Source: Lysobacter auxotrophicus (GTDB lineage: Bacteria; Pseudomonadota; Gammaproteobacteria; Xanthomonadales; Xanthomonadaceae). From it: a DNA stretch of 64,000 nt. Each line of letters starts with the position of its first letter. Positions within the stretch are counted from its first letter, which is position 1. The translations under genes and the position numbers were made by a program. Below the pieces are notes generated by a model. The model did no database searches. It saw only the letters and a program-made list of their open reading frames with translations, and was not told where the DNA came from. The stretch covers positions 744,001-808,000 of the forward strand of contig NZ_AP027041.1 in assembly GCF_027924565.1 (NCBI RefSeq). Reading direction: 5' to 3'. Below are positions 29,013 through 54,499 of this stretch, in pieces.

Positions 29013-29201
29013 GTGATTCGTGATTCGTGATTCGTGATTCGTGATTCGTGATTCGTGATTCGGGAAGCGGGAATCGGGAATCGGGAATCGGGAATCGGGA
29101 ATCGGGAATCGGGAATCGGGAATCGGGAATCGGGAATCGGGAATCGGGAATCGGGAAGCGGGAAGCGGGAAGCGGGAAGCGGGAAGCGGGAAGCGGGAAG
29201 C
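29013..29201 (+). repeat. Array of 27 heptamers in four blocks
   Basis: Seven GTGATTC units (29013-29061) are followed by one GGGAAGC, twelve GGGAATC (29069-29152) and seven GGGAAGC (29153-29201). Unit length never varies, but the unit sequence changes in blocks. Related short heptamer stretches appear at 37608-37704, 38228-38255 and around 52455-52480. Such simple repeats arise by slippage and are likely variable in copy number between strains. Confidence 0.95.
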
Positions 29202-29238
29202 GGGATTTGTGTAGCCGACTCCCGGAGGCTTCTTTGCC

Positions 29239-37601: not shown

Positions 37602-37607
37602 GGGGCC

Positions 37608-37704
37608 GTGATTCGTGATTAGTGATTCGTGATTCGCAAAAGCGGGAGCAGGATCGGCGTGCGGCTTGGCTTTATCGAATCACCAATCACGAATCGCCCA
37701 TCAC
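37608..37704. repeat. Opposed heptamer repeats between valS and holC
   Basis: GTGATTC-type units at 37608-37635 (four units, one GTGATTA) face GAATCAC-type units at 37677-37704. The opposed blocks can pair, with about 40 bases between. The unit is the same as in the 29013-29201 array. Confidence 0.85.
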
Positions 37705-40045: not shown

Positions 40046-41152
40046 ATGCCCAAGCTGGACCGCTATCTCATCAGCGAATTCGCGCAGGCGATCCTCGCCA
40101 CGCTGATCGTCCTGCTGATCGTCACCGTCGGCGGCGCCTTCACCGACGTCCTCCAGGACATCGCCCGCGGCCGCGTGCCGGCCGGGCTGATGCTCGCCCA
40201 GCTGGGGCTGGTGCTGCTCAAGTGGCTGCCCCTGATCCTGCCGCTGGCCCTGATGCTCGGCCTGATGATGGGCGTCGGCCGGCTGTACCGCGATTCGGAA
40301 ATGCCGGTGATCGCCTCCATCGGCGTGGGTCCGCGCCGCATGCTCAAGCCGCTGCTGTACGTGGTCGGGCCGCTGGTCGCGATCGTCGCGGCGTGTTCGC
40401 TGTGGCTGGGGCCGTGGGCCGACCGGGTATCCAAGCAGATGATCAACGACGCCAACCGCAGCCTGGTCATGGCCGGGCTGGAGCCGGGAACGTTCACCGG
40501 CATCCCGGGCGGCGGTGGGGTGATCTACGTGTCGAACATGTCGAAAGATGGCAGCGGCTTGGAAAAAATCTTCGTCTATCGCGACAACGGCCAGGGCGTG
40601 CTGGACGTGGTCACCGCCAACGAAGGCAAGCTCACGGTGGATGAAGCGGGCCATCGCTACCTCACGCTCACCCGCGGCTTCCAGATCGAAGGCCGCTCGG
40701 ACGGGCCGAAGGATTTCCGCCTGATGCGCTACGCGCGCAACGAGATCCTGCTGCCGGCCAACGACGAGCGCTTCGACCCCGACGCGCCGGAAATGCAGCC
40801 CACGCTGACGCTGCTGGGCGACGACAGCCGCGAGGCGCGCGCGCAGCTGCATTACCGCATCGCGCCGCCGCTGCTGGCGCTGGCCTTCGCGCTGATGGCC
40901 GTGCCGCTCGCGCGCAGCATGCCGCGCCAGGCGCGTTACGGCCGCATCCTGATCGGTTTCCTGGCGTACCTCATCGGCCAGAACCTGATGACCGCCGGCC
41001 GCGGCTGGTTGGAAGACGGCAAGATCGCCAGCGGCCTCGGCCTGTGGTGGCTGGTGGTGCCGATCATGGCGATCGCGCTGTGGCTGTACTTCACCGATGG
41101 CCGCCTGGGTCGTCGCAAGACGGCGCCGACGCGTAATGGAGCGGCCGCATGA
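40046..41152 (+). CDS. lptF: LPS export permease LptF
   Basis: The 368-residue inner-membrane protein is part of the LptB2FG transporter that extracts LPS and passes it to LptC. It has N-terminal helices (FAQAILATLIVLLIVTVGG and more), a periplasmic jellyroll in the middle (VIYVSNMSKDGSGLEKIFVY, LTRGFQIEG) and C-terminal helices. lptG follows with a 4-base overlap. The pair next to pepA and holC is common in gammaproteobacteria. Confidence 0.94.
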   Translation: MPKLDRYLISEFAQAILATLIVLLIVTVGGAFTDVLQDIARGRVPAGLMLAQLGLVLLKWLPLILPLALMLGLMMGVGRLYRDSEMPVIASIGVGPRRMLKPLLYVVGPLVAIVAACSLWLGPWADRVSKQMINDANRSLVMAGLEPGTFTGIPGGGGVIYVSNMSKDGSGLEKIFVYRDNGQGVLDVVTANEGKLTVDEAGHRYLTLTRGFQIEGRSDGPKDFRLMRYARNEILLPANDERFDPDAPEMQPTLTLLGDDSREARAQLHYRIAPPLLALAFALMAVPLARSMPRQARYGRILIGFLAYLIGQNLMTAGRGWLEDGKIASGLGLWWLVVPIMAIALWLYFTDGRLGRRKTAPTRNGAAA

Positions 41153-42249
41153 AGCCGTTTCCGAAGATCCACGACCTGTATGTCGGTCGCGTCGTGCTGG
41201 GCACGGTCGCGCTGACCTGGGCGGTGCTGGCCGGCCTCGACGTGATGCTCGGCCTGGTGAGCGAGTTCGGCGACATCGGCAAGGGCAAGTACGGCATCTC
41301 CGAAGCCTTCGTCTACATGGCGCTGAGCATTCCGCGACGGCTGTATTACCTGTTTCCCTACGCCGCGGTGATCGGTTCGCTGATGGCGCTGGGCCAGTTG
41401 GCGGCAACGTCGGAACTCACCGCCTTACGCGCATTGGGACTGTCCCGTCGCCGCCTCGGCCTCGCGGTGGCCGGCGCGCTGGCCCTGCTGACGGCGCTGA
41501 TGGTGGTCAACGGCGAGAGCGTCGCGCCGTGGACGCAACAGCGCGCGGACGCGCTGAAATCCGGCGCCAAGTCGGGCAACACGGTCGTCGCGCAGTACAC
41601 GGGTCTGTGGGCGCGCGAAGGCGAGACGATCCTCAGCGCGACCGGCGGCCAGGAGCGCGAGCGCAACGGCGACCGGTTCCTCGAACTGACGGACGTGAGA
41701 CTGTTCGAGTTCGCGCCCGACGGGCACCTTCGCTCCCTCGCGCATGCGCGCATCGCCGAGCATCGCCCCGGCGGCTGGCTGCTGCGCGACGTCACGCGCA
41801 ACACGTTCGAGGAGCGCTCGGTGCGGCAGGTGAAGGTGCCCGAGGAACGCTGGAAATCGCAGCTGGATGCCGCCGCGCTGTCGGCGGGGACCGAGCGCCC
41901 GCGCTATCTCTCGGCGGCGAGCCTTCGTGCCGCGATCGAGTATCGCGAGCGCAACCAGCTGGACGCGTCGGAGTTCGAGGAACACTACTGGGGCCGCTGG
42001 TTCTACCCGATCAACGTGCTCGCGTTGTGCCTGGCGGCCGTGCCGTTCGCCTTCGGCACGCTGCGCAGCGGCGGCATGGGGAAACGGTTGTTCATCGGCA
42101 TCGTGTTCGCGCTGGGCTTCTGGCTGCTGCAGACGCAATTCGTGAAGTTGGCGACGGTGTACAAGTTCGACTACCGCATCGCGTACCTGTTGCCGACGAT
42201 GATCATGCTCGGTGTCTCCAGCTTCCTCTTCAGAAGGAGGAGTGGGTGA
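41149..42249 (+). CDS. lptG: LPS export permease LptG
   Basis: The 366-residue partner of LptF begins MKPFPKIHDLYVGRVVLGT and has the FVYMALSIPRRLYYLFPYAAVIG helix block, SELTALRALGLSRRRL coupling helix and a periplasmic domain with RLFEFAPDGHLRSLAHAR. The final residues are FLFRRRSG, and the stop codon is the TGA of a GGGTGAG boundary that begins a structured repeat. Confidence 0.94.
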   Translation: MKPFPKIHDLYVGRVVLGTVALTWAVLAGLDVMLGLVSEFGDIGKGKYGISEAFVYMALSIPRRLYYLFPYAAVIGSLMALGQLAATSELTALRALGLSRRRLGLAVAGALALLTALMVVNGESVAPWTQQRADALKSGAKSGNTVVAQYTGLWAREGETILSATGGQERERNGDRFLELTDVRLFEFAPDGHLRSLAHARIAEHRPGGWLLRDVTRNTFEERSVRQVKVPEERWKSQLDAAALSAGTERPRYLSAASLRAAIEYRERNQLDASEFEEHYWGRWFYPINVLALCLAAVPFAFGTLRSGGMGKRLFIGIVFALGFWLLQTQFVKLATVYKFDYRIAYLLPTMIMLGVSSFLFRRRSG

Positions 42250-42530
42250 GCGGCCGCGCTTGCGCGCCACTGGCGCGCGCGGCCGCGAACGCCCGGCCAT
42301 GGAATGGTCGGGCAGGGCGACCCGAAGCGAAAGCGTGACGCCATGGATGGCAGCGGCATCCTCATCGAAGTGAGCGCTTTTGCTCTGCGCGGCCGCGAAC
42401 GCCCGGCCACGGAATGGTCGGCAGGGCCACCCGAAGGCGAAAGCGTGACGTCATGGATGGCAGCGGCATCCTCATCGAAGTGAGCGCTTTTGCTCCGCGC
42501 GGCTGCGAAACGCCATGCAGAGCAGCAAGC
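42250..42530 (+). repeat. Structured repeat, family B, beginning at the lptG stop
   Basis: Directly after the TGA, bases 42250-42286 fold as an 8-bp stem (GCGGCCGC with GCGGCCGC), a GCTT bulge, a 7-bp stem (GCGCGCC with GGCGCGC) and an ACT loop. GAACGCCC and a second hairpin (GCCCGGCCA with TGGTCGGGC) follow. Anchors at 42279, 42389 and 42499 show about 110-base tandem spacing; the third is degenerate. No gene lies in 42250-42629. Confidence 0.85.
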
Positions 42531-42629
42531 CCCTCATCGAAGTGAGCGCTCTTGCCCTGCACGACGAGCCACACGCAAGCAAACCCGGGCTGCACTCCGC
42601 CTACCCAGCCTACAAACGCCGGGTAAAAC

Positions 42630-43097
42630 CTACCGCTTAGGCAACCGCACCATCCGCGTCCCGCTCGCGCGGTCGTGCCAGGTGAGCCGATCACGATCCA
42701 CCCACGCCCACCAGAACCCGAGCCCCGCGAGCAGCAGCGACGCGCTGCCGACGGCGAACCGGATAACCAGCGCACGAAGCTGCGGTGCGGAAACCCCATC
42801 GTCCGCGACGACCTTCAAACGCCACGGGCGCATCCCCAGCGTCTGCCCGCCACGGCGCCAGCTCAGCAGCGCGTAGCCGCCGGTGATCAGCCAGCACACC
42901 AGCCACAGCACCCACTGCACGGCGCTGAATGGCGCGATGTTTTCGCGGCTCGCGTGCCCGCTCATCGTGTAGCCGACGGTGAACACCAGCGAGGCCACCA
43001 TCCACATCGCGATCACCGGCCACATGTCGTAGACGAGCGCGAGCACGCGCCAGCCGATGAGCGCGGAAGGGCGGGACGATGCGGGAGTCGATGCCAT
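42630..43097 (-). CDS. RDD family membrane protein
   Basis: The 155-residue protein has three hydrophobic segments and the RDD pattern: an initial RVLALVYDMWPV, WRRGGQTLGMRPWRLKVV in the middle and WHDRASGTRMV at the end. The first motif position reads YDM instead of the usual (F/L)DxxxV, a minor change. Function is unknown for most members; some act in ion exchange. It converges with lptG across the repeat and is divergent from xerD. Confidence 0.85.
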   Translation of the reverse strand: MASTPASSRPSALIGWRVLALVYDMWPVIAMWMVASLVFTVGYTMSGHASRENIAPFSAVQWVLWLVCWLITGGYALLSWRRGGQTLGMRPWRLKVVADDGVSAPQLRALVIRFAVGSASLLLAGLGFWWAWVDRDRLTWHDRASGTRMVRLPKR

Positions 43098-43126
43098 CGC
43101 ATCAGGATAGCCGCTAAGCTGCGGCG

Positions 43127-44080
43127 ATGACCGCACGCACGCCCGCGCAACGCCGCTCCATCGCCATGGCGTTGCCGCCGCTTCCCGACGAAGACGCCGT
43201 GCTGATCGGCCGTTTCCTCGATGCGATCTGGGCCGAAAACGGCCTCGCGCAGCCCACGCTCGACAGCTATCGCCGCGACCTGGAACTGCTCGCCCGTTAT
43301 CGCAGCGGGCGCGCCGGCGCATTGGCCGGAGCCGATCGCGCGGCGCTGTTCGACTACCTCGCATGGCGTTCGCAGCAGGGGTATTCGCCGCGCAGCAACG
43401 CGCGCCTGCTGTCGGCGTTGCGCGCGTTCTATGCGTGGCTGGTGCGGCGCGGCGCGCGTTCCGACGACCCGACCGCGTTGCTCGATCCGCCGAAACTGCC
43501 GCGTTCCCTGCCGAAGGCGCTGGCCGAGAGCCAGATCGAGGCGCTGCTCGCCGCGCCCGACATCGCGACGCCGCTGGGACTTCGCGATCGCGCCATGCTC
43601 GAGTTGATGTATGCCGCCGGCCTTCGCGTGAGCGAGCTGGTGAACCTGCCCGCAACCGCGGTGAACCTGCGCCAGGGCGCGCTGCGCGTGATGGGCAAGG
43701 GCAGCAAGGAGCGCCTGGTACCACTGGGCGAGGAAGCGCAGCACTGGCTCGAACGCTACCTCGCCAAGGCGCGTCCGCAGCTGGCCGGCAAGCGCGCGCT
43801 GGCACCGCTGTTCCTCTCGTCGAACGGCGAAGCGCCGACGCGCCAACAGTTCTGGCTGCTGGTGAAGAAATACGCCGCGGCGGCGGGTATCGATCCCGAT
43901 CGCATCAGTCCCCACGGCCTGCGCCACAGCTTCGCCACGCATCTGCTCAACCACGGCGCCGACCTGCGCGCGTTGCAGATGCTCCTGGGCCACAGCTCGC
44001 TGTCCACCACGCAGATCTACACGCTGGTGGCGCGCGAGCAGCTCAAGCAACTCCACGCAAAGCACCATCCGAGGGGGTGA
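43127..44080 (+). CDS. xerD: Tyrosine recombinase XerD
   Basis: The 317-residue recombinase resolves chromosome dimers at dif with XerC. The catalytic residues are visible: Arg in [12 protein letters not shown], Lys in [13 protein letters not shown], His-Arg in [13 protein letters not shown], His in [11 protein letters not shown] and the nucleophile Y298 in QIYTLVARE. XerD is favoured over XerC by the [19 protein letters not shown] linker and the C-terminal HAKHHPRG. A second in-frame ATG at 43166 is an alternative start. The stop TGA is part of a structured repeat boundary. Confidence 0.93.
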
Positions 44081-44330
44081 GGCAGGCCGCTTACGCGGCA
44101 CTGCCGCGTGGCCTGCCGAACGCCCGACCACGGAGGGTCGGGCAGGGCCATCCGAAGCCCACTACGTCGCGCCATGGATGGCAGCCGCACCACCATCGAA
44201 CCCGTGCCAAGCGGCACTGCCGCGCGGCCGCGAACGCCCGGCCATGGAGGGCCGGGCAGGGCGGCCCGGAGCCGGCGGCGTGCCGCCATGGATGGCAGCG
44301 AAGCGCGCATCGAAGCTGCGCTTTTGCGGT
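44081..44330 (+). repeat. Structured repeat, family A, beginning at the xerD stop
   Basis: Bases 44081-44117 fold as GGCAGGCC with GGCCTGCC (8 bp), GCTT bulge, ACGCGGC with GCCGCGT (7 bp) and ACT loop. The second hairpin is GCCCGACC with GGTCGGGC. A second unit starts near 44213 without the outer 5' arm. The first 40 bases are nearly identical to those after the gspF stop. Confidence 0.85.
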
Positions 44331-44379
44331 TGCGTTTGCAGTTGCAAGTTGCAAGTTGCATTGCAGTTGCCTTGCGCTT

Positions 44380-44527
44380 GATCGTCATCCCGGCAAGGGC
44401 GGGGTCGGCAACAGCGGCAACAGCAAGGGGTTCCAGCGTTCGCTGGAATGACGGTGGAATGGTTCACCGGGAAGGGAGTGCCCGAACGTTGCGAGCCTGG
44501 GTCCCGGCGTTCGCCGGGATGACGATC
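44380..44527. repeat. 15-bp inverted-repeat element
   Basis: GATCGTCATCCCGGC at 44380-44394 and GCCGGGATGACGATC at 44513-44527 are exact inverted copies enclosing about 118 bases. Inside is a further hairpin, TTCCAGCG with CGCTGGAA. The arms belong to the GTCATCCCGGC family, so this is a paired, MITE-like arrangement. The flanking 44335-44370 is a short GTTGCA-rich simple repeat. No gene is seen in 44081-44824. Confidence 0.8.
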
Positions 44528-44590
44528 TTCTGGGATGACGTTCCAAGGGTGATGTTCCTCCAGCGCACCCGGGACGGGAGGCGACCGCGC

Positions 44591-44619
44591 CCCGGGTGCG
44601 CCTCGCTTACCCGGGCTAC
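44591..44619 (-). repeat. GTAG-type REP unit
   Basis: CCCGGGTGCGCCTCGCTTAC followed by CCGGGCTAC, with a partial opposed GCGCACCCGGG just before at 44563-44573. It matches the REP at 251-329. Confidence 0.8.
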
Positions 44620-44824
44620 CACGGCAACAGCCCAAAACCCAGCCGAACATCGGCCTCGTGCGGCAGGGCTGTGGCGACAACCCGGCCATGGCCCCGAAAC
44701 GCCACCCCATAACCCCACCCAAACCCCGTCCCCACACCGGGACCTACGACACTCGACCCACCGCGACCCCGTGCCACAATCGGCCATTCCCCCTCGCGGC
44801 CCCGGCCGCCCGACAGGATTGCGA

Positions 44825-45679
44825 ATGAAACGACTCGTCCTTGCCGTGCTCGGCGCCATCAGCCTCTCCGCATGCGCGCAGGCCCCCGGCGGCAACACGG
44901 ACCCCGTCCCCGCGGCGACCACCGCCGCCGCCACCGCGCCGATCGCCGCCCCCAAGCCCGCGGCCGGCACGCCCGACGCGCGCGCCATCGAGGCCGTCCG
45001 CGCGCTGAATCCGCAGGTCGAAGTCGAACGCGTCGCCGCCGCGGCGATGCCCGGCTTCCGCGAAGCCATCGTCGCCGGCCAGGTTGTCTACGTCAGCGAC
45101 GACGGCCGCTATCTGTTCCTGCCCGGCTCCGGCGGCGCCCTGTTCGACGTCGCCGCGAAGAAGAACCTCAGCGAAGACGCGATGGCCGGCCTGCGCAAGC
45201 AGCTGATCGCCACCATCCCCGCCAGCGAGCGCATCGTCTTCTCGCCGGCCAAGCCCAAATACACCGTCACCGTCTTCACCGACGTGGAATGCGGCTACTG
45301 CCGCAAGCTGCACAGCCAGATCGCCGAATACAACCGCGAAGGCATCGCCATCGAATACCTCGCCTTCCCGCGCATGGGCCTGGGTAGCGACGACTACCGC
45401 AAGATGGTCGCGGTCTGGTGCGCGCCCGATCGCCGCAAGGCGCTCACCGCCGCCAAGAGCGACCACGGCCCGACCAAGGCCGACTGCAAGACCAGCGTGA
45501 ACCAGCAGTACGACGTCGGCCAGCGCGTGGGCCTGACGGGCACACCGATGATCGTGACCGCCGAAGGCGTCCAGGTCGGCGGTTACGTCCCGCCGGCCGC
45601 GCTGCGCGAGACCCTGGACAAGCTGGCCGCCGAGAACGCCCGCACCGCGTCCGCGGCGCCCGCCAAGCCGGGCACCTGA
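44825..45679 (+). CDS. dsbC: Thiol:disulfide isomerase DsbC-type, lipoprotein form
   Basis: The 284-residue protein has a signal with a lipobox-like LSACAQ, an Ala/Pro linker, a dimerisation domain ([20 protein letters not shown]) and a thioredoxin domain with the redox motif C156-GY-C159 in [20 protein letters not shown] gives the cis-proline. It corrects wrong disulfides in the periplasm. The usual DsbC is soluble; the cysteine at the lipobox suggests anchoring. The ATG at 44825 is chosen because [17 protein letters not shown] is a complete leader. Confidence 0.92.
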
Positions 45680-45684
45680 GCGTT

Positions 45685-45730
45685 CCGACAAGCCGCTCCG
45701 GCGCCGCCCGATGGGCGGCGTCGGCGTTTT
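45685..45730 (+). terminator. Terminator after dsbC
   Basis: CGCCGCCC at 45702-45709 pairs with GGGCGGCG at 45713-45720, with CCGAC/GTCGG pairing outside. GTTTT follows at 45726-45730. Confidence 0.75.
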
Positions 45731-45815
45731 CGGACCCCGGATCGGCCGGTTCCGGCGGCGGGGCGCGGGGCGCTTGGGTACAATGTCGGGCCCGACGTTG
45801 CACGGTTCCCCGGAC

Positions 45816-48800
45816 ATGATCGTCCTCGAGGGCGCTTCCGCCCTGTCGCCGTTCCGACTGGAACGGCTCCAAGCCCGACTGCAAGCCCTCCATCCGTCTG
45901 TCCGCCTCCTCGGCGCGTGGCCCGTCTACTGGGTCGAGCCGGAGCCCGGCGCAACGCCCGATGCGGATGCGCTGCGCCGCATCCTCCAGGCCGAACCCGA
46001 CGCCGCGCCGCGCGCGAACGACGCGGTGTCCCGCTACGTCACGCCGCGCCTGGGCACGCTGTCGCCCTGGGCGAGCAAGGCGACCGAACTGCTGCACGGC
46101 GCCGAACTCCCGGTGAAGCGCGTCGAGCGCGGCACGCGTTACGACCTGGCCGGCTGGCCGACGGACGCGCCGACGCAGGGCGCGCTGGCGAAGGTGCTGC
46201 ACGACCCGATGACGCAGTCGCTGCTGGAAGCGCGCGAGGACGCCATCGCGCTGTTCTCCGTGCCGGTGCGCGGCGAGCTCGAACGCATCCCGCTGTCCGA
46301 CCTCGAACTGGCCAACACACGCCTGGGCCTGGCGCTGGCCGACGACGAAATCGCCTACCTGCGCGAGCGCTACGCCGCGCTGGGCCGCGAACCGTCGGAC
46401 GTCGAGCTGATGATGTTCGCGCAGGCCAATTCCGAGCACTGCCGCCACAAGATCTTCAACGCATCGTGGACCATCGACGGCGTCGAGCAGACGACCTCGC
46501 TGTTCAAGATGATCAAGCACACGCACGCGACCACGCCCGAGCACACGCTCTCGGCGTACAGCGACAACGCGGCGGTGGTGGAAGGCTACGCGAGCCGCCG
46601 CTTCCGTCCCGACCCGCACACGCACGCGTACCGCGAGGAAGCGCAGGTCGATTCGGCCTTCGCGATCAAGGTCGAAACGCACAACCACCCCACCGCCATC
46701 GCGCCGTTCCCGGGCGCCTCGACGGGCGCCGGCGGCGAAATCCGCGACGAAGGCGCGACGGGTCGCGGCGGTCGTCCGAAGGCCGGCCTGGCCGGTTTCA
46801 GCGTGTCGCACCTGCGCATTCCGACGCTGCCGCAGCCGTGGGAGCGCCCGCGCGCGCTCAATCCGCGCATGGCCTCGGCGCTGGAGATCATGATCGAAGG
46901 CCCGATCGGTGCCGCCGCGTTCAACAACGAATTCGGCCGCCCGAACCTCACCGGCTACTTCCGCAGCTTCGAGCTGGACGAAGGCACGCAGGCGCGCGCC
47001 TACGACAAGCCGATCATGCTCGCCGGCGGCCTGGGCGCGATCGACCGCGTGCAGGTGAAGAAACTCGGCTTGCAGCCGGGCGATGCGGTGATCGTGCTTG
47101 GCGGCCCGGCGATGCTCATCGGCCTGGGTGGCGGCGCGGCGAGTTCGGTCGCCTCGGGCGAGAGCCACGAGGAACTGGATTTCGCCAGCGTGCAACGCGA
47201 CAACCCGGAGATGGAGCGTCGCTGCCAGGAAGTTATCGACCGCTGCGTCGCGCGCGGCGAGGACAACCCCATCGCGACCGCGCACGACGTCGGCGCGGGC
47301 GGCCTGTCGAACGCGATCCCCGAACTGCTGCACGACTCCGGCCTGGGCGGCATCATCGATCTGGCGAAGGTGCCCAGCGACGATCCGTCCCTGTCGCCGA
47401 TGCAGTTGTGGTGCAACGAATCGCAGGAGCGTTACGTGCTCGGCATTCCGGCCGACCGCGTCGCCGAATTCGCCGCCATCTGCGAGCGCGAGCGCTGCCC
47501 GTTCGCCGCGGTCGGTTTCGCCACGGCGGAGGAGCGCCTGGTCGTCGGCTACGGCGCCACGCGCGAGACCGCGCGCGAAGCCGGTCGTGAGTGGCCGATC
47601 GACCTGCCGATGGACGTGCTGTTCGGCAAGCCGCCGAAGATGCACCGCGACACGCGCCGCCCCGGTGCCGCGCCGTGGCCCGCGCTGCGCTGGGACGGCC
47701 TGGAACTGCGCGATGCCGCGCTGCGCGTGATGGCGCATCCTTCGGTCGCGTCGAAGAACTTCCTGGTCACCATCGGCGACCGCAGCGTCGGCGGCCTGAC
47801 CGCGCGCGACCAGATGATCGGCCCGTGGCAGCTGCCGCTGGCCGACTGCGCGATCACGCTGTCGGGCTTCGACGGGTTCGTCGGCGAGGCGATGGCGATC
47901 GGCGAGCGCACGCCGCTGGCGCTGATCGATGCCGCCGCCGCCGCACGCATGGCCGTCGGCGAGGCGATCACCAACCTGTGCGCCGCACCGGTGGAATCGC
48001 TGAACCGCGTGAAGCTCTCCGCCAACTGGATGGCCGCCGCCGGCCACGACGGCGAGGACGCGCGCCTGTTCGATGCGGTGAAGGCCGTCGGCCTGGAGCT
48101 GTGCCCCGAACTCGACCTGAGCATTCCCGTCGGCAAGGACTCGCTGTCCATGCAGGCGCAGTGGCATGCCGACGGCGAAGCGCACAAGTCGGTGTCGCCC
48201 GTGTCGCTGATCGTCAGCGCGTTCGCGCCGGTCGTCGACGTGCGCGCGCAGCTGACGCCGCTGCTTTCGCGCGAGGACGACTCCGAGCTGTGGCTGATCG
48301 GCCTGGGCGCCGGCAAGCAGCGCCTGGGCGGTTCGGTGCTGGCGCAGTGCCATCCCGAGGCCGCGGACGGCCAGGGCTCGTTGCCCGCGTTCTCCGGTCC
48401 GCTCGGCGTGCCGGACCTCGACAACCCGCAGCGCCTGCGCGATTTCTTCGAACTGATCCGCGATGCGCGCGAGGCCGGCCTCGTGCGCGCGTACCACGAC
48501 CGTTCCGATGGCGGCGCGTTCGCGGCGCTGTGCGAGATGGCGTTCTGCTCGCGCGTGGGCCTGGACATTACGCTGGACGGCTGGGGCGACGATCCGTTCC
48601 GCACGCTGTTCAACGAGGAGCTCGGCGCGATCGTGCAGGTTTCGCTGGAAGATCGCGCCGAATTCGCCGACCTCGTCGCGCGCCACGGCTTGATCGACTG
48701 CGCCCAGCGCATCGCCCGCCCGACCACGGCGCCGGCGATCCGCGTGCGCGACGACGGCCGGACGCTCGTCGAATGGCGCTGGGAAGAACTCTTCGACGCG

Positions 48801-49724
48801 TGGTGGTCCACCACCCACGCAATCCAGAAGCTGCGCGACAACCCGGAAGGCGCCGACGAGGAACGCACCGTCGCGCGCGATTTCAACGCGCCGGGCCTGA
48901 AGCCGAAGCTGGTGTTCGATCCGGCCGACGACGTCGCCGCGCCGTTCGTCAACACCGGCGTGCGGCCGAAGGTCGCCATCCTGCGCGAGCAGGGCGTCAA
49001 CGGCCAGATCGAGATGGCGCTGGGCTTCACGCGCGCCGGCTTCGAAGCGGTCGACGTGCACATGAGCGACCTCATCGCCGGCCGCGTCGCGCTGGCCGAC
49101 TTCAAGGGCATCGCCGCCTGCGGCGGTTTCAGCTACGGCGACGTGCTCGGCGCGGGCCGCGGCTGGGCGACGTCGGTGCTGGAACGCAACGCGCTTCGCG
49201 ATGCCTTCGAGGCGTTCTTCGCGCGCGAGGACAGTTTCTCGCTGGGTGTGTGCAACGGCTGCCAGATGCTCTCGCAGCTCAAGCCGATCATCCCGGGCGC
49301 CGAACACTGGCCGACGTTCCTGCGCAACCGCAGCGAGCAGTTCGAGGCGCGCACGGGCCTGCTGGAAGTGGTCGAGTCGCCGTCGCTGTTCCTGCGCGGC
49401 ATGGCGGGTTCGCGCATTCCGGTGGCGATCGCCCATGGCGAGGGACGCGCCGACTTCGACAGCACGCTGGACCAGACGGCCGCGAACGTGTCGCTGCGCT
49501 ATGTCGACGGCAACGGCAACGTGGCCACGCGTTATCCGCTCAACCCGAACGGCTCGCCGGACGGCATCGCCGGCCTCACCAGCCGCGACGGCCGCGCGAC
49601 CATCCTGATGCCGCATCCCGAACGCACGCTGCGCACGGCCAACCTGAGCTGGGCGCCGGCGGACTGGGGCGTGGATTCGCCGTGGATGCGGATGTTCCGC
49701 AACGCGCGGGTGTGGGTCGGCTGA
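45816..49724 (+). CDS. purL: Phosphoribosylformylglycinamidine synthase
   Basis: The 1302-residue large-type PurL converts FGAR to FGAM with glutamine in purine synthesis. The N-terminal and FGAM synthase domains contain [35 protein letters not shown] and [19 protein letters not shown]. The C-terminal glutaminase has its nucleophile in [14 protein letters not shown] and the partner His in [10 protein letters not shown]. The ATG at 45816 ([13 protein letters not shown]) is preferred to one at 45783 because a TACAAT -10-like hexamer lies at 45779-45784. Confidence 0.96.
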
Positions 49725-49732
49725 TGGGCCGA

Positions 49733-49766
49733 TGAACGCGACAGGCGAAGGCGCCTGTTGCGTTCA
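49733..49766 (+). terminator. 15-bp hairpin after purL
   Basis: TGAACGCGACAGGCG at 49733-49747 pairs with CGCCTGTTGCGTTCA at 49752-49766, with one G-U pair and an AAGG loop. It starts 8 bases after the purL stop. No T-run follows. Confidence 0.7.
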
Positions 49767-49825
49767 CCGCGACGCGGTACGCGTTGGCAATGCGAGTATC
49801 GGCAGCGATCTCGTGCGTGAAGCTC

Positions 49826-49854
49826 CCCGGGTGCGCTTCGCTTACCCGGGCTAC
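49826..49854 (-). repeat. GTAG-type REP unit
   Basis: The sequence is the exact 29-base unit found at 301-329, in the same orientation. It lies between the ends of purL and the convergent TPR gene. Confidence 0.9.
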
Positions 49855-49930
49855 GATCGCCACGCGAGGACAGCGACCACGTGGATAACCGGCGACCGCA
49901 TCGCATGCGATCGCCGGCGGACGCGTCGCG

Positions 49931-50464
49931 TTATTCCTGCGGCCGGACGTTCAGATAGGCGCCGGCCATGTGCAGCGTCGCCCACAGGTCGTTGGATTCC
50001 AGCGCGACCGAGCGATCGAACATCTCCTCGCCAATCGCACGGTCGCCGCGCATGACGTAAAGCGCGCCCACTTCGGCGTAGCCGGTGCCGTCGTCGTCGG
50101 TGCCCTGGAAATAGCGCGCGAACAGCGGCTTGGCCTTGTCCCATTCGCCGGCCTCGCTGTAGACGCGGGCGATGCGGAACACGTCGCTGTCCTCGTGCTT
50201 GCCGGCCAGGATCGCGTCGAAGATCGCCTGGCCTTCGGCCTTGAAGCCGCCGAGGTAGTACACGCGACCCACCGCGATCTGTTCCCAGCTGCCCTTGCCG
50301 GCCTGGAGCTTCGCGACCGCGAGCAGTTCCTTCGCCGCGTCCTGGTTGGCCTTGGCGTGATACATCTGCGTCGTGGTCTTCTGCTGCTTCTGCGCGGTGT
50401 AACCGACGCCGGCACCGGCGATGAACACGACAACGGCCGCGGCTGCGGCGTGGCGGATCTTCAT
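49931..50464 (-). CDS. TPR-like exported or membrane-anchored protein
   Basis: The 177-residue protein starts MKIRHAAAAAVVVFIAGAG, an N-terminal membrane or signal segment. The rest is helical and TPR-like: WEQIAVGRVYYLGGFKAEG, VFRIARVYSEAGEWDKAKPL and AEVGALYVMRGDRAIGEEMF. Such proteins act as scaffolds in the periplasm. It is divergent from the type II secretion operon, which suggests but does not prove a link. The start at 50464 fits the leader sequence. Confidence 0.75.
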   Translation of the reverse strand: MKIRHAAAAAVVVFIAGAGVGYTAQKQQKTTTQMYHAKANQDAAKELLAVAKLQAGKGSWEQIAVGRVYYLGGFKAEGQAIFDAILAGKHEDSDVFRIARVYSEAGEWDKAKPLFARYFQGTDDDGTGYAEVGALYVMRGDRAIGEEMFDRSVALESNDLWATLHMAGAYLNVRPQE

Positions 50465-50609
50465 GCGTTGACTCCCCTGTGAGTGCGGCAAGGCTAAACG
50501 ATCGGCGGGCGCCACGGTCGAAACGGACGGCGTAGACAAAACCGCCGTTCCGAACGGGTCGTACGCGCTGGCATAAACGCCGGCCTGCTACAGTCCCCGG
50601 ACCCGTCGC

Positions 50610-50640
50610 GGAGGAGGTCGGAAACGACCTGATTAGCGTG
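50610..50640 (+). promoter_or_regulatory. Hairpin between Shine-Dalgarno and GTG start of gspE
   Basis: GGAGG at 50613-50617 lies 20 bases before the GTG at 50638, too far for a normal ribosome site. AGGTCG (50615-50620) pairs with CGACCT (50625-50630) under a GAAA tetraloop. The folded stem would bring GGAG to within about 7 bases of the start, or hide it. A TACAGT -10-like element lies at 50589-50594. Confidence 0.5.
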
Positions 50641-52359
50641 AACGCCGTCGCCAACGACCTCATTCCCCCCTCGGACGCCGAGGCCCGTATCGTCGATGCA
50701 CTGCTCGCGCGCGGCCGCCTCAAGGATGCGGACCTCGCCCGCGCGCGCCGCCTGCAGGAGGAAACCGGCGGCAGCCTGCTGGCCCTGCTCGCACGGCTGG
50801 GCCTGGTGTCCGAGCGCGACCACGCCGAGACCTGCGCCGAGGTGCTGGACCTGCCGCTGGTCGCCATCAAGGACGCGCCCGAACTGCCGCCTGAAGGCGT
50901 CGCGCTGTCGACGCGTTTCATGAAGCAGTTCGCGGTGTGCCCGGTCGGCGAGAACGAGACCGCGGTCGACGTGCTCATGGCCGACCCGCAGGACGCCTAC
51001 ACCGTCGACGCGCTGCGCCTGGCGACCGGTCGCGACATCCGCCCCGCCGTGGCGCTGCGTTCGGAAATCGGCGACCTGGTCGAACGCTGGTACGGCCAGG
51101 GCCGCAGCGCCATGGGCGCGATCATCGAAACCGCGGAAGGCGAAGGCGCCGGCGGCGACCTCGACGACGTCGAGCATCTGCGCGACCTGGCATCCGAAGC
51201 GCCGGTCATCCGGCTGGTGAACCTGATCATCCAGCGCGCGGTCGAGCTGCGCGCCTCCGACATCCACATCGAACCGTTCGAGAACCGCCTGAAGGTGCGC
51301 TACCGCATCGACGGCGTGCTGAGCGAAGGCGAAAGCCCGCCGGCCAACCTCACCGCCGCCGTGATCAGCCGCATCAAGATCATGGCCAAGCTCAACATCG
51401 CCGAACGCCGCCTGCCGCAGGACGGCCGCATCATGCTGCGCGTGCAGGGCAAGGAACTCGACCTTCGCGTGAGCACCGTGCCGACCGCGCACGGCGAAAG
51501 CGTGGTGATGCGACTGCTCGATCGCGAAACGGTGGTGTTCGACTTCAAGCGGCTGGGCTTCACCGACGCGTTCCTGCCGCAGTTCCAGAAGGTGCTCGAC
51601 CAGCCGCACGGCATCTTGCTGGTCACCGGCCCGACTGGCTCGGGCAAGACGACCACGCTGTACACCGCGCTGAGCAAGCTCAACACGCCGGACGTCAAGA
51701 TCATCACGGTCGAGGACCCGGTCGAATACCAGATCGAAGGCATCAACCAGATCCAGGCCAAGCCGCAGATCGGGCTCGACTTCGCGCACGCGCTGCGCAG
51801 CATCGTCCGACAGGATCCGGACATCATCATGATCGGCGAAATGCGCGACCTGGAGACGTGCCGCATCGCGATCCAGTCCGCGCTCACCGGCCACCTGGTG
51901 CTGTCGACGCTGCACACCAACAACGCCGCGGGCGGCATCACGCGCCTGCTCGACATGGGCGTGGAGGACTACCTGCTGACCTCCACCATCAACGGCATCC
52001 TCGCGCAGCGCCTGGTGCGTCGCCTGGAATTGACGCACGCGCGCCGCTATCCCGCGTCGCCGGAGGAAATCGAACGTTTCGACCTGCGCCGTTACCAGCC
52101 CGAAGGCGAGATCTTCCTGTACCACCCGATGCCGTCGCCGATCGCGCCGACCGGTTACCACGGCCGCACGACGATCATGGAATTCCTCGTCATGAACGAC
52201 GAACTGCGCCGCGCGGTGATGCGCCACGCCGGCATGGGCGAGATCGAACAGATCGCGCGCCAGCACGGCATGCGCACGATGTACGAGGACGGCATCGCGA
52301 AGGCCCTGCGCGGCGAGACGACGATCGAGGAAGTGCTGCGGGTTACGGAGGATGCGTAG
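50638..52359 (+). CDS. gspE: Type II secretion ATPase GspE (XpsE)
   Basis: The 573-residue cytoplasmic ATPase powers pseudopilus assembly. The N-terminal region (ARIVDALLARGRLKDADLAR, LLARLGLVSERDHAETCAEV) resembles the GspL-binding domain of XpsE. Walker A GPTGSGKT is at 331-338, GEMRD at 400-404 and the His box near TLHTNNA. The usual zinc-binding tetracysteine loop is missing: residues about 462-502 contain no cysteine (LELTHARRYP and MPSPIAPTGYHGRT). The GTG at 50638 is the only start that keeps the N-terminal domain. Confidence 0.95.
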   Translation: MNAVANDLIPPSDAEARIVDALLARGRLKDADLARARRLQEETGGSLLALLARLGLVSERDHAETCAEVLDLPLVAIKDAPELPPEGVALSTRFMKQFAVCPVGENETAVDVLMADPQDAYTVDALRLATGRDIRPAVALRSEIGDLVERWYGQGRSAMGAIIETAEGEGAGGDLDDVEHLRDLASEAPVIRLVNLIIQRAVELRASDIHIEPFENRLKVRYRIDGVLSEGESPPANLTAAVISRIKIMAKLNIAERRLPQDGRIMLRVQGKELDLRVSTVPTAHGESVVMRLLDRETVVFDFKRLGFTDAFLPQFQKVLDQPHGILLVTGPTGSGKTTTLYTALSKLNTPDVKIITVEDPVEYQIEGINQIQAKPQIGLDFAHALRSIVRQDPDIIMIGEMRDLETCRIAIQSALTGHLVLSTLHTNNAAGGITRLLDMGVEDYLLTSTINGILAQRLVRRLELTHARRYPASPEEIERFDLRRYQPEGEIFLYHPMPSPIAPTGYHGRTTIMEFLVMNDELRRAVMRHAGMGEIEQIARQHGMRTMYEDGIAKALRGETTIEEVLRVTEDA

Positions 52360-52388
52360 CGGGACGAGCCTATTCGCGCTTTCGCGGT

Positions 52389-52416
52389 CGTCATTCCCGC
52401 CTTCGCGGGAATGACG
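52389..52416. repeat. GTCATTCCCGC hairpin between gspE and gspF
   Basis: CGTCATTCCCGC at 52389-52400 pairs exactly with GCGGGAATGACG at 52405-52416 around CTTC. Degenerate heptamers (CCGACTC twice) follow before gspF. The 124-base gap holds no gene. Confidence 0.85.
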
Positions 52417-52483
52417 AGCAAAAGCAAACCCAGATCCCGGATCGCAGAACCCTGGTCCCCGACTCCCGACTCCCATCCCACCC

Positions 52484-53701
52484 ATGCCCCTCTACCACTA
52501 CAAAGCCCTCAACCCGCGCGGCGAGCTGCTCGATGGCCAGATGGAAGCCGGCAGCAGCGCGGAGGTCGTGGCGCGATTGCAGGAGCAGGGGCATTTGCCG
52601 GTCGAAGCGAAGCTCGCGAGCGAGGCATCCAGTGCGTCGGTCTGGAAAGGGCTGTTCAAGCCCAAGCCGTTCGCCGGCGCGCGGCTGGTTCAGTTCACGC
52701 AGCAGCTTGCAACGCTGCTCGGCGCCGGGCAGCCGCTGGATCGCGCGCTCACCATCCTGCTGGAACTGCCCGAAGACGAAGCCGCGCGACGCACGATCGG
52801 CGACGTGCGCGATGCGGTGCGCGGCGGCAGTTCGCTCTCGACGGCGCTTGAGCGCCAGCACGGCACGTTCTCGCGCCTGTACGTGAACATGGTGCGCGCC
52901 GGCGAGGCCGGCGGCAGCCTGCAGGAAACGCTCGCGCGACTGGCCGATTACCTCGAACGCACGCGCGCGCTGCAGGGCCGCGTGGTGAATGCGCTGATCT
53001 ATCCGGCGATCCTGCTGGTGATGGTCGGCGGCAGCCTGCTGTTCCTGTTCGGCTACGTCGTCCCGCAATTCGGCGCGATGTACGAAAGCCTGGACGCCGA
53101 GCTGCCGTTGTTCACCAGGATCGTGCTCGGCATCGGCCTGTTCGTGCGCGACTGGTGGATCGTGCTGCTCGCAGTGCCGGCGCTGGGCTTGTGGTGGTTC
53201 GATCGCAAGCGCCGCGATCCGGTGTTCCGCGAAGCCTTCGACGCATGGCTGCTGCAGCGCCGTTTCGTCGGCGGGCTCGTCGCCAAGGCGGAGACGGCGC
53301 GCCTCGCGCGCACGCTCGGCACGCTCGTGCGCAACGGCGTGCCGCTGATCACCGCGCTGGGCATCGGCCGCAACGTGCTCGGCAACCGCGTGCTGGCGGC
53401 GGACGTGGATGCCGCCGCGCAGGAAGTGAAGAACGGCGTCGCGCTCTCGACGGCGCTCGGCCGCGGCAAGCGCTATCCGCGACTGGCCTTGCAGATGATC
53501 CAGGTCGGCGAGGAATCCGGCGCGCTCGACACCATGCTGGTGAAGGCGGCCGAAACCTTCGAGCAGGAAACCTCCATCGCCCTCGACCGCATGCTCGCCG
53601 CCCTGGTCCCGGTGGTGACGATCGTGCTGGCGGGGGTGGTCGGCATCGTCGTGATGGCCGTGCTCATGCCGCTATACGGCCTAACCAATGCGATTGGGTG
53701 A
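52484..53701 (+). CDS. gspF: Type II secretion inner-membrane platform protein GspF
   Basis: The 405-residue protein begins MPLYHYKALNPRGELLDGQM and has two homologous cytoplasmic GspF domains (FTQQLATLLGAGQPLDRAL and LARTLGTLVRNGVPLITAL) and three membrane helices. It forms the platform around GspE/GspL. The end LTNAIG and the stop codon are part of a GGGTGAG boundary, after which a large repeat array separates it from gspG. Confidence 0.95.
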   Translation: MPLYHYKALNPRGELLDGQMEAGSSAEVVARLQEQGHLPVEAKLASEASSASVWKGLFKPKPFAGARLVQFTQQLATLLGAGQPLDRALTILLELPEDEAARRTIGDVRDAVRGGSSLSTALERQHGTFSRLYVNMVRAGEAGGSLQETLARLADYLERTRALQGRVVNALIYPAILLVMVGGSLLFLFGYVVPQFGAMYESLDAELPLFTRIVLGIGLFVRDWWIVLLAVPALGLWWFDRKRRDPVFREAFDAWLLQRRFVGGLVAKAETARLARTLGTLVRNGVPLITALGIGRNVLGNRVLAADVDAAAQEVKNGVALSTALGRGKRYPRLALQMIQVGEESGALDTMLVKAAETFEQETSIALDRMLAALVPVVTIVLAGVVGIVVMAVLMPLYGLTNAIG

Positions 53702-54330
53702 GGCAGGCCGCTTACGCGGCACTGCCGCGTGGCCTGCCGAACGCCCGGCCATGGATGGCCGGGCAGGGCATTCCGGAGTCGGTAACGTCCCGCCATGGAT
53801 GGCCGTGCGCGAGTGCATCGGAGCGCTTGCACGCGGCACTGCCGCGTGGCCTGCCGAACGCCCGGCCATGGATGGCCGGGCAGGGCGTTCCGGAGTCGGT
53901 AACGTCCCGCCATGGATGGCCGTGCGCGAGTGCATCGGAGCGGCTGCACGCGGCACTGCCGTGTGGCCTGCCGAACGCCCGGCCAGGGATGGCCGGGCAG
54001 GGCATTCCGGAGCCGTAACGTCCCGCCATGGATGGCCGTGCGCGAGAGCGTCGGAGCGGTTGCACGCGGCACTGCCGCGTGGCCTGCCGAACGCCCGGCC
54101 ATGGATGGCCGGGCAGGGCATTCCGGAGCCGGTAACGTCTCGCCATGGATGGCCGTGCGAGTGTGCATCGGAGCGGTTGCACGCGGTACTGCCACGTGGC
54201 CTGCCGAACGCCCGGCCATGGATGGCCGGGCAGGGCATTCCGGAGCCGGTAACGTCCCGTCATGGATGGCCGTGCGCGAGTGCATCGGAGCGGTTCACGC
54301 GGGACTGCCGCGCGGCCTGCCGATGTCCCG
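53702..54330 (+). repeat. Six-copy 116-117 bp structured tandem array inside the secretion operon
   Basis: GCCTGCCGAAC-type anchors occur at 53732, 53849, 53966, 54082, 54199 and 54315, giving periods of 117, 117, 116, 117 and 116. The first unit has the full double-stem hairpin (53702-53738); inner units keep the ACGCGGC-ACT-GCCGCGT hairpin and the GCCCGGCCA/TGGCCGGGC hairpin. The last copy is truncated. From 54331 to 54499 there is no gene; a TATAAG hexamer at 54333-54338 could be a -10 for gspG. Confidence 0.95.
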
Positions 54331-54499
54331 CTTATAAGGACCGGATCGCCGAACGAACCGCCCCGGCCACCCCAGGCGACATTCCCCCCTTCACACCCGC
54401 GTCGCAGGAACTGAACATCGGCCCCCGCAGTCAGACCACTGGCAACCGTTTTCGGGTAAACATCCCCTGTTTCCAGATGCACCTTCCAAAGGAACCCCC

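Follow-up and report, generated by a model that had tools for sequence, protein, structure and literature searches.

Repeat architecture behind lptG, xerD and gspF

The stretch of DNA analysed here (hereafter the window) comprises 64,000 nucleotides (nt) of the Lysobacter auxotrophicus genome (contig NZ_AP027041.1, positions 744,001 to 808,000 of the forward strand), in which the genes lptG, xerD and gspF are each followed, from the first base after the stop codon, by a structured non-coding repeat. The repeat belongs to a dispersed family whose window-type copies occupy stop codons far above the local expectation and carry loops of the CsrA/RsmA type in their second and third hairpins. The open reading frames (ORFs) ending at the three stops (41149-42249, 43127-44080 and 52484-53701) were named LptG, XerD and XpsF by NCBIfam models, the GspF model scoring below its cut-off for the third.

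Each unit spans about 108 nt and is composed of a GGGTGA tag, a bulged hairpin (hp1), the tetranucleotide GAAC, a second hairpin (hp2), a linker and a small third hairpin (hp3), past which conservation drops among the aligned copies. As an earlier note on this DNA had claimed, the tag supplies the genes' own TGA at all three sites, and a 37-nt hairpin, hp1, begins at the next base; its unpaired parts (bulge GCTT, loop ACT and the following GAACGCCC) are identical in the three copies, while the stems differ yet stay paired. Across the aligned copies hp1 measures 37 or 45 nt and has a 4-nt GYYY bulge and covarying stems. In the window type hp2 reads GCCCGGCC-ANGGAN-GGCCGGGC and hp3 reads GCCANGGANGGC. 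The hairpins recognised earlier were as described, but that description stopped at hp2 and missed hp3, the tandem arrays and the ANGGAN loops. The features are as follows (all on the plus strand; basis in brackets).

42244-42249, plus: GGGTGA tag, its TGA (42247-42249) being the lptG stop (sequence, ORF, NCBIfam)
42250-42286, plus: hp1 of the lptG copy, with outer stem GCGGCCGC, bulge GCTT, inner stem GCGCGCC and loop ACT (sequence, covariance model)
42291-42313, plus: hp2 of the lptG copy, GGA loop with one additional A, ATGGAAT (sequence, covariance model)
42340-42351, plus: hp3 of the lptG copy, GCCATGGATGGC (sequence)
42368-42461, plus: second tandem unit after lptG, the array reaching to about 42514 (covariance model, repeat listing)
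44075-44080, plus: GGGTGA tag, its TGA (44078-44080) being the xerD stop (sequence, ORF, NCBIfam)
44081-44117, plus: hp1 of the xerD copy (sequence, covariance model)
44122-44143, plus: hp2 of the xerD copy, loop ACGGAG and a compensated A-T pair in the stem (sequence, covariance model)
44171-44182, plus: hp3 of the xerD copy, loop ATGGAT (sequence)
44194-44296, plus: second tandem unit after xerD (covariance model)
53696-53701, plus: GGGTGA tag, its TGA (53699-53701) being the gspF/xpsF stop (sequence, ORF, NCBIfam)
53702-53738, plus: hp1 of the gspF copy (sequence, covariance model)
53743-53764, plus: hp2 of the gspF copy, loop ATGGAT (sequence, covariance model)
53792-53803, plus: hp3 of the gspF copy, loop ATGGAT (sequence)
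53811-53920, 53936-54036, 54044-54153 and 54169-54270, plus: units 2 to 5 of the gspF array, lacking the hp1 5' outer arm, the array ending at about 54323 (sequence, covariance model, repeat listing)

The covariance model recovers nine strong units in the window (three first and six tandem), all on the plus strand and arranged in arrays of 2 (lptG), 2 (xerD) and 5 (gspF), which together hold 18 GGA loops as counted by eye. First units were matched with E-values of 7e-23, 4.8e-21 and 1.6e-18 by a model built from 83 distinct copies, which include the xerD copy and exclude the other two window first units. By itself the heptamer GGGTGAG shows no enrichment, with 8 occurrences across the window versus 7.3 expected.

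Judged by eye, tandem units (window 53811-54323; loci L028, L034 and L036) restart near the hp1 bulge and are separated by a spacer of near-constant length (about 27-33 nt), whose sequence differs by array and often holds TCGAA. Elsewhere in the window heptanucleotide arrays occur at 29013-29205 (GTGATTC, then TCGGGAA) and 37607-37636 (CGTGATT). A G-rich repeat is reportedly enriched in Xanthomonas (PMC4692102), with which we claim no kinship for these arrays.

Structural conservation and covariation

Building a covariance model and searching related genomes with it, as had been proposed, gave supported covariation. In the 83 distinct copies 18 pairs are altered in both partners, 17 of these belonging to hp1. 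Taken over the full structure, covariation scores 0.502 versus 0.138 in shuffled alignments and at most 0.09 with partners slid, and 95.7% of the cells of the alignment are paired. Selection of hp1 for structure is thus supported by overwhelming covariation. Within the window type, hp2 and hp3 conserve sequence, not pairing: both-side changes affect 1 of the 9 hp2 pairs, the stem being nearly invariant, and the hp3 stem is near-invariant likewise, so that covariation tells little about either. The compensatory hp2 change that had been pointed out (GGCC/GGCC in the gspF copy, GACC/GGTC in the xerD copy) is real, yet the wider claim of selection on structure is supported for hp1 and, within the window type, not for hp2 and hp3.

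The boundary had been given as the 7-base tag GGGTGAG, of which GGTGA remains as the boundary. We rejected the longer form, since its final G is the first base of the hp1 stem and covaries with its partner (pair 7-53: G-C in 70, A-U in 10, G-U in 2 and another combination in 1 of the 83 copies).

Distribution of the repeat family

The covariance model finds matches in 12 of 12 Lysobacter genomes (1-63 per genome, tandem units counted), 37 of them in the single-contig, 4.16-Mb genome of L. auxotrophicus, where the copies show no clear replichore bias, as judged by eye and not computed. A strict pattern matched at least 120 stretches in named genomes, among them Lysobacter (e.g., L. arvi, locus L090; Lysobacter sp. 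MMG2, L066; L. changpingensis, L087), Luteimonas, Xanthomonas, Pseudoxanthomonas, Stenotrophomonas, Solimonas and Nevskia. The repeat is therefore a dispersed family, with copies also in other gammaproteobacterial genera. In 30 loci scanned with regular expressions and hairpin rules, no line was judged to be the element.

No known Rfam family reaches its gathering threshold in the window, and low-threshold matches (e.g., to H19, on the minus strand) appear to be fortuitous. Integron attC sites and group II intron ends were weighed as candidates, but neither cassettes nor an intron core were seen at the three window sites, and we found no published description of the repeat in a search by literal strings and otherwise by titles and abstract openings.

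Placement at stop codons

At 78 of 141 boundary sites the TGA of the tag lies in frame with the upstream coding sequence, while the other two frames account for 10 and 13, 8 sites fall on reverse-strand coding and 32 gave no clear call, as assigned by a codon model whose training set was 356 ORFs of the same loci. The in-frame excess (78/101 versus one third) has p = 2e-19. Two sites that look like chance matches (L113 and L141), still among the 141, were dropped from the 118 boundary matches compared with called genes, leaving 116 copies: 61 lie exactly at a stop, 33 are intergenic, 20 fall within a same-strand gene (11 of them at most 5 codons from its end) and 2 within an opposite gene. Element-free GGTGA sites of the same loci, which were fetched because they bear elements, number 24 at stops versus about 296 in intergenic positions (totals minus element sites), against 61 and 33 for the elements, and the over-use of stops relative to this local baseline corresponds to an odds ratio of 23 (p = 2.5e-29). 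Chance-level placement had been named beforehand as the outcome that would overturn the association with stop codons; what was found lies far above the GGTGA baseline.

In the L. auxotrophicus genome 15 of the 18 first units examined (of 37 matches) score best in frame, L299 narrowly so (28 versus 27). Here the model matches, for which no tag was preset, show GGGTGA, GGGTAA, GGATGA and GGTTGA, and the variants GGGTAA and GGATGA still give a stop codon. Across genomes, 88 in-frame GGA-bearing copies collapse into 46 C-terminus clusters, i.e. orthologous insertions recur.

Hairpins directly behind genes might terminate or attenuate transcription of the gene before them, and behind 45 of the 61 stop-attached copies the next gene lies on the same strand. 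The distance from insertion point to that next gene (median 309 nt, element included) leaves room for other signals, and none of the hairpins hp1 to hp3 is followed by a T-run, either in the three window copies or in the aligned copies, as seen by eye with no dedicated terminator scan. We rejected an intrinsic terminator on this lack of a T-run and regard termination or attenuation as very unlikely.

The element can also stop reading frames other than that of its tag. Where the tag lies in another frame, the gene was seen to end at most 5 codons into the element (L072, L077, L091, L092, L103, L105, L107, L139, L140, L153 and L160), and in L107 the out-of-frame reading stops at a TAG in the bulge (GCTTAG). 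Some antisense copies (L059, L061, L088, L102 and L162) have their 3' end about 1-20 nt from the stop codon of the opposite-strand gene.

Probable insertion target and age of the stop codon

Orthologous sites were compared for two of the window genes. A xerD match exists in all 60 family genomes searched, and of the 30 loci read 29 encode the C-terminus HHPRG and one HHPRA; the element is present in 5 of these 30 by regular expression, some others holding apparent variants or relics. For gspF, all 10 parsed of 12 orthologues from the genus end in ...AIG, 3 with and 7 without the element, and empty sites among the matches listed read GGCTGA, GGGTGA or GGATAG. As the proteins end alike whether or not the element is present, the comparison of sites has shown the stop codon to predate the element at both genes, and we rejected for them an element that brings its own stop codon, the last residue being common to element-free orthologues. 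GGTGA looks like a target 5' of the element, with hp1 beginning at the next base. Two sites at GGGTGA stops without a window-type element (L168 for xerD and L260 for gspF) have other GC-rich palindromes directly 3' of the stop, at L168 an hp1-like palindrome followed by a hairpin with an AGGA loop; they suggest that several families may share one target.

Relation to tagged palindromic repeats and search for a mobilising enzyme

The architecture recalls the GTAG- and CGTC-tagged repetitive extragenic palindromes (REPs), in which a short unpaired tag likewise abuts a palindrome on its 5' side, the stem has a bulge and copies are numerous and dispersed (PMC3733652, PMC6006769, PMC8266576), and hp1 has the form by which REPs are recognised (a palindrome of 20-50 nt, often bulged, 3' of the tag). 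GTAG REPs also adjoin gene 3' ends, and their termini often supply a TAG stop codon, as described in PMC3733652. Unlike in REPs, the tag is GGTGA (present in 83 of 83 alignment rows, where the search pattern required it) and not GTAG, GTGG or CGTC, and downstream of the 37-nt hp1 the units, which form head-to-tail arrays, continue with conserved GAAC, hp2 and hp3.

The likeness favours a purely selfish REP-like element of single-stranded DNA that inserts 3' of GGTGA and is purged from genes and promoters, its hp2 and hp3 loops being read by its transposase and not by CsrA. Covariation that keeps the structure of hp1 and not its sequence fits such an element too, whereas the GGTGA baseline would demand very strong purging of intergenic insertions. 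We consider this explanation possible, though rather improbable.

Neither does a partner enzyme come to its aid. Although Y1 transposase (PF01797) matches occur in 24 of 30 element-bearing genomes, we rejected a REP-associated tyrosine transposase (RAYT) as partner on 57 of 58 such matches, none of which is flanked by the element on both sides. The 56 loci concerned contain four model matches, namely a good copy about 0.9 kb from the RAYT (L289), a weak variant (37 bits) on one side only, some 150 nt past the RAYT (L278), and two weak matches (L282 and L284). Within the genus a PF01797 match was found in the L. auxotrophicus genome only, below cut-off: this RAYT-like gene (L044 1426-1950, at about 591.4 kb of contig C1; 22 bits) lies between GTAG-type repeats, TTGTAGCCCGGGTAAGCGAAGCGCACCCGGG, which are a separate family. 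By eye, the RAYTs of L044, L278 and L289 all adjoin GTAG-type repeats.

The repeat also resembles non-autonomous elements derived from IS200/IS605 in its subterminal hairpins and single-strand structure, and may, like them, insert 3' of a fixed, short, unduplicated target. On the 5' side, filled and empty orthologues have the stop codon and last residue in common; on the 3' side no clean empty junction was found. No TnpA gene with matching ends was found among the Y1 loci examined. Of the earlier suggestion of a mobile element with GGGTGAG as target, the target specificity survives, for GGTGA and at the xerD and gspF orthologues, while mobility we infer from copy number and from filled and empty orthologous sites.

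Relatives without GGA loops

A search that demanded the tag, hp1 and GAACGCCC but no GGA gave matches in 90 of 197 family genomes, with many hp2 types without GGA, and we accordingly rejected the idea that CsrA-type loops define the superfamily as a whole. These relatives provide an internal contrast. Among 40 GGA-less copies from five genomes (G232, G199, G073, G138 and G033) there is 1 in-frame stop, and in 40 further loci in-frame stops occur in 2/26 GGA-less versus 9/14 GGA copies. When copies are pooled by hp2 type, in-frame stops number 92/159 for the window type versus 3/72 for other, GGA-less stems, the former coming mainly from the strict-pattern search and the latter from the GGA-free search, in partly different genomes. 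Because a larger repeat (CCTCTCCCGC...GCGGGGTGA) encloses many of the GGA-less copies, we also counted distinct upstream contexts, which gives 46/102 versus 3/28 (p = 7.8e-4). An hp3 of the form GCCANGGANGGC stands behind 133/159 window-type hp2 and behind 0/72 of the GGA-less other-stem hp2.

Since these relatives have the same tag and hp1 and are rarely at stops, tag and hp1 alone do not explain the placement, which is due to the hp2-hp3 part of the window type or to something linked with it, the loop itself being one possible cause. For the selfish element, relatives that have the same tag and lack stop placement are an awkward observation, while the fact that they have spread as well speaks for it.

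GGA loops also occur in hp2 on other stems (GCCCGTCC/GGACGGGC, GCCCAGCC/GGCTGGGC, GCCCGCAC/GTGCGGGC and GCCCTCGAC/GTCGAGGGC in the wider set). Two of four such copies are at stops (L384 with ACGGAT and L385 with AGGAA; L383 is noncoding and L062 off frame), and in L. auxotrophicus itself locus L302, with stem GCCCGGGC/GCCCGGGC and loop AGGAA, is at a TAA stop. At L309-L342 the GGA-less relatives are often found inside a larger dispersed compound repeat (CCTCTCCCGC...GCGGGGTGA or CTCGCCCCGC...GCGGGGTGA).

CsrA-type loops

The loops of hp2 and hp3 both read A-N-GGA-N, the hexaloop form of CsrA/RsmA sites; an RsmE/CsrA site is described as a hairpin with an ANGGAN hexaloop in which N is variable (PMC7652899). 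In 128 of 141 copies CCAN of hp2 is followed by GGA, a triplet that was no part of the search. Among the 120 of 141 copies with hp2 CCANGGANGG, a CGCC anchor located hp3 in 111, with the columns A 109; N as T 61, G 23, C 17 and A 10; G 107; G 109; A 108; N as T 60, C 40, G 6 and A 5; and G 109 (n = 111).

Tandem units tell the same story: between adjacent units (33 of 53 pairs, annotated and 75% to <100% identical, the other 20 filtered out) differences affect the N positions in 24/131, GGA in 5/198 and other positions in 251/2127 comparisons (N versus GGA, p = 1.1e-6). The second unit lacks the hp1 5' outer arm in 27 of the 33 pairs and, as GGA is kept in such armless units, resident copies appear constrained and not only potentially moving ones. 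Loop variation that falls mostly on N, between tandem units as well, runs counter to a purely selfish element.

A csrA gene (PF02599) was found under 42 of 42 genome handles tested (at most 38 distinct genomes), and the CsrA of L. auxotrophicus is canonical, retaining L4 and R44. Genome G011 encodes, besides a normal csrA, two additional CsrA-family matches in one 213-aa open frame (C1 475726-476097).

With several GGA-loop hairpins, the repeat is like the RNAs that sequester CsrA/RsmA (CsrB, RsmX/Y/Z, RsmU). In PMC7694677 RsmU of Xanthomonas is described as derived from a 3' untranslated region (UTR) and as binding RsmA, which it still bound in vitro after its four GGA motifs had been changed. 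Unlike CsrB and the Rsm small RNAs (sRNAs), our repeat is dispersed behind many genes with no dedicated sRNA gene, and its CsrA sites are predicted from sequence. Nearest by kind in Rfam is TwoAYGGAY (RF01731), which, as its name says, has two hairpins with AYGGAY loops. It is predicted to bind CsrA (PMC4333381). Its best match within 53680-54340 covers one hairpin only and scores 19 bits versus a gathering threshold of 43. To our knowledge TwoAYGGAY shows no dispersed placement behind stop codons. The earlier statement that no described family fits is right as far as searched, at the level of sequence, although close kinds exist in GTAG-tagged REPs and CsrA-binding RNAs.

The alternative raised at the outset, a 3'-end RNA module, gains support in the more specific form given by these loops. 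In a more general form, the hairpins would be a stabiliser or processing signal that blocks 3'-5' exonucleases or shapes translation termination, with no special role for GGA. The three window copies fold stably as single strands (z of -3.7, -4.1 and -2.3), positions behind stops are necessarily transcribed, at least at their start, and mRNA stabilisation has been hypothesised for REPs (PMC3733652); but the constrained GGA beside free N positions, and the rarity at stops of GGA-less relatives with another hp2, would be left unexplained, and we hold a plain stabiliser to be improbable.

A putative CsrA-binding module in 3' UTRs

Taken together, the data suggest, at about even odds in our judgement, a REP-like, probably mobile non-coding repeat, of which the window subfamily carries a two-site putative CsrA-binding module in 3' UTRs. 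The repeat would insert 3' of GGTGA, hp1 being recognised as single-stranded DNA by some enzyme. As the element starts right after the stop, an mRNA with the whole gene carries at least the start of the element as its 3' UTR, an argument that holds for stop-attached copies only. In that RNA the A-N-GGA-N loops of hp2 and hp3, about 44 nt apart, may face the two binding sides of a CsrA/RsmA dimer. Every copy would give its message two terminal CsrA sites, and tandem arrays more; the copies together may hold back free CsrA or couple the stability of the host mRNAs to it.

Several observations weigh against this combined reading. Of the 21 intergenic copies that lie away from stops in one-way gene pairs 15 are antisense and 6 sense, and antisense copies tell against CsrA binding because they would show UCC, not GGA, in the RNA; the excess favours the selfish element. 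Divided strictly by loop, with mutated window-type loops counted as GGA-less, in-frame stops number 88/147 versus 7/65, but by distinct context 46/96 versus 7/28 (p = 0.049), a weak link between loop and stops, and the unequal sampling of the two classes adds to this. Since tag and hp1 also occur in relatives devoid of GGA, the loop is not needed for spread. Between tandem units the hp2 stem differs at 9/527 positions and is thus held as firmly as the loop; this very stable 9-bp stem is bound in sequence more than CsrA binding alone requires, while hp3 has 4 pairs only and is present in the minimum free energy fold of 1 of 3 window copies. The presence of csrA, common in Gammaproteobacteria, discriminates little. 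On the side of mobility, no gene with an element on both sides, and hence no mobilising enzyme, was found for 57 of 58 PF01797 matches (56 loci), nor did any empty site show a clean 3' junction, the L. auxotrophicus gspF site and that of G003 showing no base-for-base alignment next to the stop.

More tentatively still, and with considerable doubt, we propose that a pool of dispersed repeats, and not an sRNA of the CsrB/RsmZ type, may determine how much CsrA is free in Lysobacteraceae and Nevskiaceae-type bacteria. If so, how strongly dozens of ordinary genes are transcribed would be reflected in CsrA titration, and the repeats would be candidate CsrA antagonists where known Rsm sRNAs escape sequence search; for sequenced Xanthomonas genomes, PMC7694677 reports no significant homologue of known Rsm sRNA families. 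Should the loops bind CsrA, a transposable repeat would distribute regulator sites behind stop codons and so build a global RNA regulon by insertion. Two subfamilies with a common tag and hp1, of which mainly the one with GGA-type hp2 and hp3 is at stops, make an old question about REPs testable, namely why tagged palindromes so often sit exactly at stop codons.

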